This document shows, in pieces, positions 53,906 through 59,703 of a stretch of DNA of 64,000 nucleotides. This stretch comes from Rubripirellula sp. (GTDB taxonomy: Bacteria; Planctomycetota; Planctomycetia; Pirellulales; Pirellulaceae): NCBI GenBank assembly GCA_012270065.1, contig JAAXJB010000084.1:1-64000 (forward strand), read 5' to 3'. How positions within the stretch are numbered: the stretch's first letter is position 1; the number at the start of each line of letters is the position of its first letter. The position numbers were made by a program, and so were the translations under genes. Below the pieces are notes generated by a model. That model was given only the letters and a program-made list of their open reading frames with translations. It did no database searches and had not been told where the DNA came from.

Positions 53906-54745
53906 TCAGCCGTCTTCACCCATCTCACGGCTACGCTCGGCTGAGGCTGCCACGGCTTCGATGAGTGCTCCACGCACACCATTCTGTTCCAGCACAGAGA
54001 TGGCCTCAATTGTGGTACCTCCGGGGCTCGCCACTGCATCTTTCAATTCTGCCGGATGTCGTTTTGTTTCTGCGATCATGGTTGCCGTACCGAGTACGGT
54101 TTGCGTAGCCAGTTTCATCGCCAGTGGTCTTGGCAAGCCTGCCAGGACTCCTCCATCGGCCAATGCCTCAATCACGATGCAGACGTATGCTGGGCCGGAC
54201 CCACTGACACCGGTGACCGCATCCATCTGCGATTCCGCGACTTCCACGGCAAGTCCAACTGAATCTAACGCGGACTGGATCCAATTGCGATCTTCCGGGG
54301 AGACCTGACTTCCGCAGCAGTAACCGCTGGCGCCTTGTCCAACAAGGCTGGGCGTGTTTGGCATTACTCGGGCGACTCTCTCGTGTCCCACGCCATGACA
54401 GAGATCAGCCAAGTCAATTCCTGCCGCGATCGATATGACAAGTTTATCCTGCCACCCAGAGCCGATTTCGCAAAGGACATTCGGGATGATGTTGGGTTTG
54501 ACAGCCAGAAGAGCAGCATCGCATTGTGAGACCGCGCCGGCCAAGTCGGCAGAGATGATTTCAGGGTGGTTTTCCGCCCACCAGTCGCGGCTCGCCGAAT
54601 CAGGGTCGACCAGCATGACTTCAGAGCCCGAGATGACGTCACTCGCCAAAAGTCCTCCGACCAGGGCGCGACCCATCTGACCACCACCAATTACTGCAAG
54701 TTTTTGCACACTCATACCGGCTTTCCTTGTTCTAGGCCGTTTCAT
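53906..54745 (-). CDS. proC: Pyrroline-5-carboxylate reductase
   Basis: 279 aa; [78 protein letters not shown]. Confidence 0.95.
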
Positions 54746-54833
54746 AGGGGGTTCTCAATTGACCCTTTCTCGGGCCCACTCTAAATTGATCGGTTTTTCC
54801 CTTCCCGAAAACCCCATTAGCCCCCTCGCTTGG

Positions 54834-55751
54834 ATGATGAAATCGACAATCGCGGAGCGACTGATCGGTGATATTGGAGACTTCTGCGTGGATGAAGCAA
54901 TCGGAAAAGCGAATACGCTAATCGAAGCCATGGGCTGGATTCGACGTTTTCGCGGTAAAACGACCGTTATAAAACTGGGAGGGAGCCTGCTTGATGATGA
55001 AGCCGCTCTGATGCACATCCTATTGGATGTGATTTTCATGGAAACCGTGGGAATGAAGCCGGTTATCGTTCATGGTGGGGGAAAAGCGATCAATCGGGCT
55101 TTGGCCGAAGCCGGAATTGAAGCGAGGTTTGTCCGTGGCAGACGCGTTACCGACGAGGCGACCTTGGAGGTCGTGCAACGCGTTCTGGCCAAGGAGCTCA
55201 ACGTTTTTCTTACCGAAGAAATAGAGCGGCTCGGCGGACGGGGAATGAACCTGTCGTTTGAGACCACCAATGTACTGTTCGGAAAGAAAATGGTGAACGA
55301 AGCTGATGAGGACATCGGTTACGTTGGTGAGGTTACCCGGGTTGATAGAAGCGTCATTGAAGGTCTCTCGTACACAGACCAGGTCCCAGTGATTCCATCC
55401 ATGTGTGAGGGAGAAAATGGGGAGCGGTACAATGTGAATGCCGATACGGCTGCTATGGCAGTTGCTCAGAGTTTGGGTGCAGAGAAACTGGTCTTTCTGT
55501 CAGATGTAAATGGTGTTCGTCGAGATAAAGAAGATCCCAACACGATCATTCACTCGCTCTCGGCGAGTGATGCACGTCAGCTCATAGAAGAAGGGGTGAT
55601 CGATGCAGGAATGATTCCCAAGGTTGAGGCATGCATTGAAACCCTGGGACGCGGAGTGCGCAAGATTCATATCGTTGACGGACGTTTGCGGCATTCGCTT
55701 TTGCTCGAGATCTTTACCACCAGTGGTGTGGGTACTGAAATTCACAGTTGA
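54834..55751 (+). CDS. argB: Acetylglutamate kinase
   Basis: Likely start 54834; [82 protein letters not shown]. Confidence 0.95.
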
Positions 55752-55855: not shown

Positions 55856-57994
55856 ATGGACGAAGCACGAGTTAACCCGAGAGATCATGAATCAGCAGAA
55901 CTGACGAACGCACTTTCCGCTGGTGACCAGCAGACGGAGCAATGTCACGAGGACGCGGCCAATGAGGAATCCAATGCCGTTGTCAAAATTAATGCCAAGA
56001 CAGGTGAACAGGTCAGTGATGAGCTACTTACGCTAAACCAGACGCAAGGTATCAATTCAATGGATTCAATGGACGAAAATCGTGATGCGGAGAAGCTGGG
56101 CGAAACGAGTGAAGAACAAGATCAGGACAGAAAGTACCAGAACTCAGAGGACGTAGAGGCAGAAGTTGTGGATGAAGAACAAATGCCAGATGTCAACGAA
56201 GAGGAATACGAGGAAGACGAGGACGCGGAATACGAGGATGCGGAATACGAGGAAGAAGACGAAGTAGAGGACGAAGAAGCAGAGTATGAGGAAGAAGACG
56301 AAGTAGAAGACGAGACAGAGCACGAGGACGAAGACGAAGCAGAGTACGAGGACGAAGCAGAGGACGAAGACGAAGCAGAGGCTGAGGCGGAATACGAGGA
56401 AGAAGACTGCGAGGAAGCGGACGAAGCGGCCGCGGCGGATGCCGAGGAAGAAGACTGCGCTCAAGACGATCAAGCAGACGTGGCGGACTCCGAGGAAGAA
56501 GGCGAAACGGAATATGAGGAAGCAGGCTATGAAGAAGACGAAGCGGATGATGAGGAAGACGAAGCGGAGGGCGATGGTTCAGTAGGTGATCGAGAACAAC
56601 AGCCCCCAGAATCCTCCGGAAATGGCTCAGAAGAAGATAGCGACGCAAGCACCGGGGCTGTGTTCGACAGCAGTAGCCAACACGGAAGCCTTGATCAACA
56701 AAACGAAGGGAATCCGGAATTCGCGGCTGTTGCTGCTGAGGTTGGTGCATCACTCAGGAGCGATACACCACCGGACAACAACTTGTCCGCCGGGGCGTCG
56801 GAGCCGAATTCGCGTCTGCATTTTTCGAGGGCTGACTTGCCGATCATGCATGGTGAACCGTTCGGGATGCGCCGCGCGGACGATGATGGTCGCGAAATGC
56901 TGGATGGTATGGCTGGACGTCATTGTGTATTCGGTTTTGGGTGCACTCCGATTCACGAGTCGCTGATCGCCAGTTTTGCTGAGTATCTGGGTGACGGAAG
57001 TTGTTTCGCAAATGTTGCAGGTCATCACCTTTCTGCACTTTCCCGGCAGTTAGAGACGCTGTTCTCCAGATCGTCTTCGGTTTCTGCTGATAGCATGGCG
57101 CTGCTTCCATCGCCGGATCTGGCGATGGAGTATGCGCTGCAGTTGACCCGTCGCTTTCGAGCAGGCAAGTCGTTCAGGACTATTGCCATGTTGGGTAGCG
57201 ATCATGGACGCACCGGTATGACACGGACAGCAAGCGGGCAGCCGGAATTGCATCAAGGGCTCGGCCCCATGATGGCGGGGTTCAGCCACGTTCCAAGTGG
57301 TGATCTGGACGCATTGCGAGCATCGATCGACGATCAGACATCTGCCATCCTTCTCTCACCGGTCGATTTGGCAAGTGGAGCAAAGGCATGCGAGGCGGAG
57401 TATCTTGTCGGCGTCCGGGAAGTCTGTGACAAGCAAGGATTGCTCCTGGTGATGGATGAAACCCAGCTTGTTTACGGTTCGACGGGCAGTCGTTTTGCTT
57501 TTGAATCTTTAGCTGATATCAACGCGGACATTGTCATTGCATCGGCCGGACTGTTTTGTGGTATGCCAGGTGGATTGGTGCTTGCGGCCGAACGTGTGAC
57601 GAAAAGTCCCATTCATGATGTAGACCGGTATCCGTTGCTTGCAGCATCATTGATGTCGACGTTGAGTGAAATGGAAGTGCATGGTTTGCCGGGTGCCGTG
57701 AACGGTGCAGCACGTGAATTTGCCGTTCTGCTCGCCGAAAAGCTGAGTGGATTTGAGTTTGTGCGGGACATGCATGTCACTGGCATGACGATTGGCATTG
57801 AATGCGATATTCATGCTGTCGACATTGTCAGTGCTGCGAGCGCCAATGGCCTGAGAGTTGCGCCAGCTGGAGAAACTGCTGTGCGACTCCAGCCACCGTT
57901 GATCATGAGTGACGAGGACCAGCAGCTTCTGTTGAAACGTTTGCTGAACACAATGAAAGCGGTTGAGCAGGAAACTGTCGACTTAACACTGTAA
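55856..57994 (+). CDS. ArgD-like (class III aminotransferase fold) protein with acidic N-terminal extension; predicted to lack the PLP lysine
   Basis: 712 aa; C-terminal ~400 aa match the ArgD pattern ([55 protein letters not shown]); PLP-lysine region reads [16 protein letters not shown]. Confidence 0.8.
56146..56575 (+). repeat. Glu/Asp-rich imperfect coding repeat (gaggaagacgaagyagag-type units)
   Basis: Translation [69 protein letters not shown]. Confidence 0.9.
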
Positions 57995-58026: not shown

Positions 58027-58977
58027 GGTATGCAACATTTATTGAGTCTGTTTGATCTGTCATCAGGTGATCTGCGTTCCCTTCTCGCTACGGCTCATGT
58101 TTTGAAAACAAGGCTGGCGGCGGGCGATCGACCACCTGTACTGGAACGCCGGGTTTTGGCGCTTCTTTTTGAAAAGCCCAGTTTGCGTACACGCGTCAGT
58201 TTTGAAACCGGAATCGCCCAGCTTGGTGGATCCAGCCTTTTTCTTGGAGATGACGTGGGTTGGGGGAAACGTGAATCCGCTTCCGATTTTACGCAGGTTC
58301 TCGGCCAGTTTGTTGATGCGGTTGTGTGTCGTGCCAAATCCCACTCCAAGGTCGAACAGCTCGCGAGTTATGACTCACTTCCTGTGATTAACGGGCTGAC
58401 CGATCTGTGTCATCCTTGTCAGGCTCTTGCTGATGTCATGACGATCCATGGTGCTTTTGGAACAGTTTCTGGCAAGCACCTTGTTTTTGTTGGCGATGGT
58501 AATAACGTGGCACAGTCACTCGCATTGGTTTGCGCCATGCTCGACATGCGTTTTACACTCTCGTGCCCGATCGGTTATGAAATGGATAATGGCTGGTTGG
58601 AAAAGGTGTTCGCACATTATCCGGCAGCGAAAATCAGTACTGTTCCAGATGCACAGGCCGCAGTTTCGGATGCTGATGCGATTTACACGGACGTTTGGAC
58701 AAGCATGGGGCAGGAAGCAGAAATGGCAGAACGCCGTGAAGCATTCTCTGCTTATCAGGTCAATCGGCATTTGATGGCCACTGCGCCCAGCCATGCAAGG
58801 GTTCTTCATTGCCTGCCCGCTGTTCGCGGTGAAGAAATTACCGATGATGTGATCGATAGTGACCAAAGCGATGTGATCCAGCAGGCGGGGAATCGCATGC
58901 ATGCCCAGAAAGGCCTGTTGGTCTGGTTGCTCAATCGCACGTGGATCGAACAGAATGTGACAGATTCTGCATTCTAA
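58027..58977 (+). CDS. argF: Ornithine carbamoyltransferase
   Basis: ORF 58018..58977; [53 protein letters not shown]. Confidence 0.96.
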
Positions 58978-58989
58978 TTCCAGTTTCCA

Positions 58990-59703
58990 ATGAGGGTTGC
59001 AAGCATGCGACGCAATGACCAGCTTCGTGACGTTGAAATACAGCGTGGTTACCTTGATTCCAACCCTGCCAGTGTGCTGTACCGTTGTGGGCGTACTATC
59101 GTGTTGTGCACTGCGTCCATCGAAGCCACTGTGCCACCGTGGTTGGAAGGGAAAGGAAAAGGTTGGGTAACAGCGGAATACAACATGTTGCCGGGGAGCA
59201 CGAGTCCTCGGAAACGTCGCGATCGTGGTGGGAAAATTGATGGCAGAACGACCGAGATTCAACGGTTGATCGGACGTAGTCTGCGTGCCGTCGTCGATCT
59301 TGAAAAGCTGGGTGAGCAAATGATCACGGTCGACTGTGATGTTCTTCAAGCCGATGGTGGAACGCGGACCGCATCGATTACAGGTGGCTTCATTGCGTTG
59401 GCGCAAGCCGTCTCGCTGGTATTACCAGAATCGAGAGTCGGCGACGGGCCGTTGACCGATTCGGTTGCCGCCGTGAGTTGTGGACTGATTGATGAACAGG
59501 TAGTTCTGGATCTTGATTACAAGCTCGATTCGGCAGCTGACGTGGACATGAATGTCATCATGACTGGCAGTGGCCGATTTGTTGAAATTCAGGGCACAGG
59601 TGAAGAGGCCACTTTTGATGACCGCCAACTGGCCGAATTGCTAAGGTTGGCCAAGCAGGGGATTCAATCACTCACGGAAAAACAAAAGCAGGCGTTGCAA
59701 TAA
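58990..59703 (+). CDS. rph: Ribonuclease PH
   Basis: 237 aa; GKGWVTAEYNMLPGSTSPRKRRDRGGKIDGRTTEIQRLIGRSLRAVVDLEKLGEQMITVDCDVLQADGGTRTASITGG. Confidence 0.97.
   Translation: MRVASMRRNDQLRDVEIQRGYLDSNPASVLYRCGRTIVLCTASIEATVPPWLEGKGKGWVTAEYNMLPGSTSPRKRRDRGGKIDGRTTEIQRLIGRSLRAVVDLEKLGEQMITVDCDVLQADGGTRTASITGGFIALAQAVSLVLPESRVGDGPLTDSVAAVSCGLIDEQVVLDLDYKLDSAADVDMNVIMTGSGRFVEIQGTGEEATFDDRQLAELLRLAKQGIQSLTEKQKQALQ

Follow-up and report, generated by a model that had tools for sequence, protein, structure and literature searches.

Proteins of fold type I that have lost the PLP lysine are known from other systems. SPTLC1/LCB1, the lysine-less subunit of serine palmitoyltransferase, is a conserved non-catalytic relative of this fold type. 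ColD, the GDP-4-keto-6-deoxymannose-3-dehydratase, has histidine in place of the lysine, keeps its cofactor site and catalyses its reaction with PMP. Closer to the case described here are two transaminases of arginine metabolism: ArgD, the N-acetylornithine aminotransferase, which belongs to class III, and AstC, the N-succinylornithine transaminase. In E. coli, AstC and ArgD can stand in for each other functionally, and Arg141 of AstC binds the carboxylate of the substrate (PMC3590144).

Here we describe gene X, our label for the gene that occupies the argD position in the argB-argF interval of a Pirellulaceae planctomycete with a genome of 7.0 Mb. The gene lies within a window of 64,000 nt, by which we mean the whole stretch of DNA that was analysed. 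We consider it probable that ArgD was functionally displaced in this family and that some lineages retained the old enzyme as a catalytically inactive pseudoenzyme.

An aminotransferase-fold protein in the argD slot

The locus contains the following features:

53906..54745, reverse strand: proC, pyrroline-5-carboxylate reductase, the conserved divergent neighbour upstream (Pfam match; synteny)
54759..55751, forward strand: argB, N-acetylglutamate kinase, start uncertain with an ATG near 54834 (TIGR00761, 213.6 bits, over cut-off)
55856..57994, forward strand: gene X, argD-position pseudo-aminotransferase of 712 aa (open reading frame)
55856..56800, forward strand: acidic low-complexity N-terminal tail of X, about 315 aa, with short GA-rich tandem repeats (tail statistics; repeat search)
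56801..57991, forward strand: aminotransferase-fold domain of X, 397 aa
58018..58977, forward strand: argF, ornithine carbamoyltransferase, whose start may be the ATG near 58030 (TIGR00658, 339 bits, over cut-off)
58990..59703, forward strand: rph, RNase PH, the conserved neighbour downstream (Pfam match; synteny)

The class III aminotransferase fold of X is supported by three lines of evidence. PF00202 covers residues 337-697 (E 6.7e-35, over the gathering cut-off), the AlphaFold model is confident (pLDDT 88.6, pTM 0.88), and the top PDB matches found with Foldseek are ArgD structures, S. typhimurium ArgD being matched with TM 0.80-0.83. The score against the TIGR00707 argD model is 145.4 bits, below the curated cut-off of 410. 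The order argB-X-argF is the same as the argB-argD-argF order of Pirellulales with a canonical ArgD, and the locus is syntenic throughout. Literature searches returned nothing on the X protein. The neighbouring ArgB carries an N-terminal segment of 18 residues that resembles the N-helix of arginine-inhibited hexameric kinases.

The first-pass annotation of this DNA made no mention of the acidic tail, which is repetitive and consists of 41% D/E. Its length ranges from about 7 to about 340 aa across homologues of X. Long tails are found in most Rubripirellula species, in R. maiorica and in one Roseimaritima, and the tail is short or absent elsewhere. Because these other lineages of X have a short tail or none, the tail is a lineage-specific addition that is not needed for the fold. 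The GA-rich tandem repeats that encode it lie at 56201-56568; the same region breaks the assembly of genome G009, and three further contigs (L008, L010 and L019) start or end within the tail.

Loss of the PLP site

The motifs that bear on catalysis are located as follows:

57104..57130, forward strand: LPSPDLAME, the segment replacing the PLP-phosphate loop NSGAEANE (alignment to ArgD)
57194..57214, forward strand: GSDHGRT, with Asp for the PLP-stacking Phe, and with the His and the substrate-carboxylate Arg kept (alignment; the Arg is the equivalent of AstC Arg141, PMC3590144)
57455..57466, forward strand: DETQ, the kept Asp-Glu of the DExQ motif (alignment)
57545..57547, forward strand: GCC, Ala564, at the Schiff-base lysine position (translation; profile alignment; homologue column)

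It had been proposed from the letters alone that an alanine stands at the Schiff-base position. The reading frame of 55856-57994, the 21-residue segment cited for this claim and the GCC codon were all recovered as described, and in a profile alignment whose match spans the whole domain Ala564 falls on the Schiff-base lysine of T. maritima ArgD. The comparison with ArgD that had been suggested as a check places Ala on this lysine, and the predicted structure matches ArgD structures. In 42 distinct homologues of X, drawn from Rubripirellula and nearby genera of the Pirellulaceae, the column holds A (31), G (6), S (3), Q (1) or E (1), and lysine in none (0/42). No substitute lysine was found within six columns on either side, nowhere in these 42 sequences does a lysine column exceed 19% conservation, and no lysine-bearing orthologue emerged. 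The same alignment has the lysine in 16/16 canonical ArgDs and in 16/16 AstC-like enzymes.

The losses extend to other parts of the site, as seen when 29 main-clade X proteins are compared with 16 canonical ArgDs. The Schiff-base lysine is replaced by A, G or S, the PLP-stacking Phe by Asp or Glu in 29/29, and both the phosphate loop NSGAEANE (NSGxEAN) and the Glu of GEGG are absent. The TFG (Thr-Phe-Gly) loop, which bears the partner-loop Thr, is deleted in 24 of the 29. Alignment agrees with the earlier observation that the phosphate loop is replaced by a different stretch of 16 residues, and the Asp of DExQ is retained as had been stated. Also kept are the rest of the DE pair, the His and, in 93% of the main clade, the Arg of HGRT. 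A further set of residues is fixed and specific to X: R40, S133-D134, C141-R142, H163, C209, G250-L251-F252, R322-D323, D336 and Q364. Among them R40, R142, G250-L251-F252, R322-D323 and D336 are 97-100% fixed in the main clade and differ from canonical ArgD. Judging from the residues lost at the PLP site, X probably binds no PLP.

In the X group of genus g69 (five loci) the Asp-Glu of DExQ has become Asp-His and the protein extends past the domain, changes that hint at further divergence.

Distribution and selection

Orthologues of X with 41-68% identity were detected in 18 of the 21 genomes of the same genus that were searched, as well as in two other genomes of the family (G032 and G034); further Pirellulaceae genera, Roseimaritima among them, have more distant X proteins. 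The lysine-less protein is present in the isolates K23_9, CA13 and R. obstinata. True absence from the three remaining same-genus genomes is unlikely: the contig of G009 stops inside the acidic tail, and a stretch of assembly is likely missing from G008 and G011, since neither argB nor argF was seen there either.

The open reading frame is intact in more than 40 species, with no stop within the matches. Between close species, dN/dS of X is 0.07-0.15; the same comparisons give argF a value of 0.03-0.11. The rate of evolution of X is about threefold that of argF and also exceeds that of argB. With dN/dS near 0.1, X is maintained by purifying selection. The first-pass annotation had suggested a pseudoenzyme, and this reading is borne out by the loss of several independent elements of the PLP site, by the conservation of this state across genera and by purifying selection. 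X is a folded and selected relative of ArgD that is very likely catalytically dead.

Origin of X and fate of argD

In the protein tree, X forms a single clade (support 100/100) that adjoins ArgD and sits on far longer branches. In the tree of argB and argF, the Roseimaritima-like X rows group with lysine-bearing ArgD rows (support 93), and it is thus possible that the lysine was lost once or twice.

Other lineages have no argD-position gene at all: argB directly adjoins argF, with argD cleanly gone, in 25 genomes that lack ArgD and carry an AstC-like gene. At least seven genus-level groups, one of them with Stieleria maiorica, show the clean deletion. S. maiorica Mal15 (G187) has joined argB and argF without argD, and an AstC-like gene is present. 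In this strain L-serine supports growth as a nitrogen source, and L-leucine and L-arginine do not in the same medium (PMC12254169). Growth with L-serine suggests that Mal15 is arginine-prototrophic without any ArgD. Genus g60 includes both states: G178 and G194 retain X, whereas in five others it is deleted. As one genus thus has species with and without X, the role of X is not required everywhere.

A candidate replacement from the ast pathway

The first-pass annotation had reasoned that a true ArgD would be needed elsewhere in the genome. This expectation probably holds for the activity but not for the gene: canonical ArgD was found in none of the X-bearing genomes (32 with X among 159 genomes of the family), and an AstC-like transaminase very likely does the job. 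A search of the window's genome for a second canonical ArgD found none. Loss of the whole arginine pathway was ruled out by the presence of argC in 30/30 genomes checked (29 over cut-off) and of argJ in 24/25.

The window's genome encodes five class III aminotransferases besides X. One of these is the AstC-like gene (G000:C55:86530-87975; loci L004 and L111), a class III transaminase without an NCBIfam equivalog, whose product scores 106.7 bits against the AstC cut-off of 609.95 and 153.4 bits against the argD cut-off of 410. The family to which it belongs stands well apart from E. coli AstC, with 105-154 bits in the best models. In addition to the lysine, the stacking Phe, both Glu and the loop Thr are present in all 16 AstC-like enzymes compared. 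The gene adjoins AstA, AstD, AstB and an M20 hydrolase in three genomes (G062, G087 and G109), and AstA alone in the window's genome. By this operon context the AstC-like gene occupies the AstC position and would encode a succinylornithine transaminase. The ast operons that hold it are those of ArgD-bearing relatives.

The AstC-position family is restricted to part of the Pirellulaceae and occurs in ast operons or alone. In X-bearing genomes the gene often adjoins a MutS-domain protein and a 644-aa protein without a Pfam match (L111:1-6200); in the window's genome and in G016 a DUF1611 protein and an enolase-superfamily protein come after this pair.

Across the 159 genomes, X is present in 32 and the AstC-like gene accompanies it in 31 of them. 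ArgD-bearing genomes mostly have both the AstC-like gene and AstB (20) or neither (55), and only one of the two in 2 and 1 genomes. Of the 81 genomes without canonical ArgD, 68 keep the AstC-like gene, and AstB is absent from 27 of those 68. The AstC-like gene is present without AstB in 29 genomes overall, 27 of which also lack ArgD. These counts score G166 as ArgD-less, yet it has a canonical ArgD cut at a contig end, and G169 carries a diverged X. Ten genomes showed no canonical ArgD, X, AstC-like gene or AstB; those with completeness shown are mostly incomplete assemblies.

A process of elimination covering class III transaminases was possible in G016 and G031, where the only such proteins (E<=1e-30 to the ArgD model) are BioA, HemL and the AstC-like enzyme, plus X in G016. 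A GabT-like protein (L001), considered as a general replacement for ArgD, was ruled out since G016 and G031 have no such protein. Retention of the ast-position gene in genomes without ArgD, this elimination and the interchangeability of the E. coli enzymes together make it very likely that in vivo the acetylornithine step passed to the AstC-like enzyme. The proposal rests on the combined arguments because a raw Fisher test is inflated by shared ancestry, and a phylogeny-aware test of co-occurrence, with only about 3-4 independent losses of catalytic ArgD to draw on, is not significant alone.

The history was then probably as follows. X would be the former argD of an argB-argD-argF operon, converted in place to a pseudoenzyme without PLP. 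N-acetylornithine transamination would have passed to an AstC-type succinylornithine transaminase from the ast (arginine-succinyltransferase) pathway, which made catalytic ArgD dispensable. Afterwards argD would have been deleted in some Pirellulaceae lineages, and in Rubripirellula, Novipirellula-like, Roseimaritima-like and related genera it would have lost its lysine and PLP site instead.

Possible present roles of X

We favour a selected, non-catalytic role for X, with a ligand- or protein-binding regulator of arginine metabolism as the preferred candidate. Ligand binding is suggested by the kept carboxylate-binding Arg together with a newly acidic pocket. A more specific version, in which PLP-free X would sense an arginine-pathway metabolite and, from its place in the operon, control ArgB, ArgF or the AstC-like enzyme, can be put forward only tentatively. 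If true, an aminotransferase fold would have been turned into an allosteric regulator with the long acidic tail as its interaction module. It is also possible, at similarly modest odds, that X is a slowly decaying relic of argD with no selected function of its own, heading to the clean deletion seen in related genera. Deletion of X in several species of a genus whose other species retain it, drift of the lysine column among A, G, S, Q and E inside one genus-level group, evolution faster than that of argB and argF, and the variable length of the tail would all fit such decay. However, dN/dS near 0.1, reading frames intact in more than 40 species and the near-complete fixation of X-specific residues in the main clade count against a relic.

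We find it doubtful that X serves as the non-catalytic partner of an active class III transaminase (probably the AstC-like enzyme), in the manner of SPTLC1 and SPTLC2. Class III transaminases form dimers in which active-site loops are shared across the interface (PMC3590144), and X-bearing genomes nearly always carry the AstC-like gene, but X lacks the loop that enters the PLP site of the partner and many argD-deleted genomes have the AstC-like enzyme without X. An enzyme with changed chemistry had been offered as the alternative to a pseudoenzyme; it would act either through lysine-free use of PLP or PMP as in ColD or through a PLP-independent reaction. His, Arg, Asp and Glu do remain in the pocket, with X-specific residues around it in the sequence; yet the stacking Phe, phosphate loop, Thr loop and GEGG Glu are lost along with the lysine, and the g69 group also turns the DE pair into DH, which makes this reading very unlikely. 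An artefact of sequencing, assembly or alignment that hides a lysine is hardly credible. Some assemblies do break within the repetitive tail, but nothing was found in favour of the lysine, and the same state recurs in 42 distinct homologues of independent genomes, the three isolates among them. Sequencing error, frameshift and a misplaced lysine are ruled out by the full-domain alignment and by orthologues without the lysine.

Comparison with known systems

Pseudoenzymes are already known, and here the steps can be traced within one bacterial family: from a catabolic paralogue beside ArgD, through loss of catalytic ArgD, to a conserved dead protein or a clean deletion depending on the lineage. 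The case puts to the test whether an enzyme of core metabolism, once displaced, can take on a regulatory role. It also matters for annotation, as X genes exceed the aminotransferase family cut-off and are likely filed as acetylornithine transaminases, and none of the curated models fits the enzyme that probably does the work. To what was first noted at this locus we add a proposed replacement enzyme, a history across the family and evidence that the dead protein is under selection.

X shares with ArgD its fold, its slot between argB and argF and the HGRT and DE motifs. It differs from ArgD in lacking the Schiff-base lysine, the phosphate loop and the TFG loop, in having Asp for the stacking Phe and in its added acidic N-terminal tail. 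AstC has its superfamily and fold in common with X, but AstC-type enzymes keep all catalytic residues and X does not. Like SPTLC1/LCB1, X is a conserved, non-catalytic fold type I relative without the PLP lysine; the two belong to different families, and SPTLC1 needs its catalytic partner, whereas any partner of X is hypothetical. Finally, ColD and X are both fold type I members that lost the PLP lysine, but ColD retains the cofactor site that X has lost.
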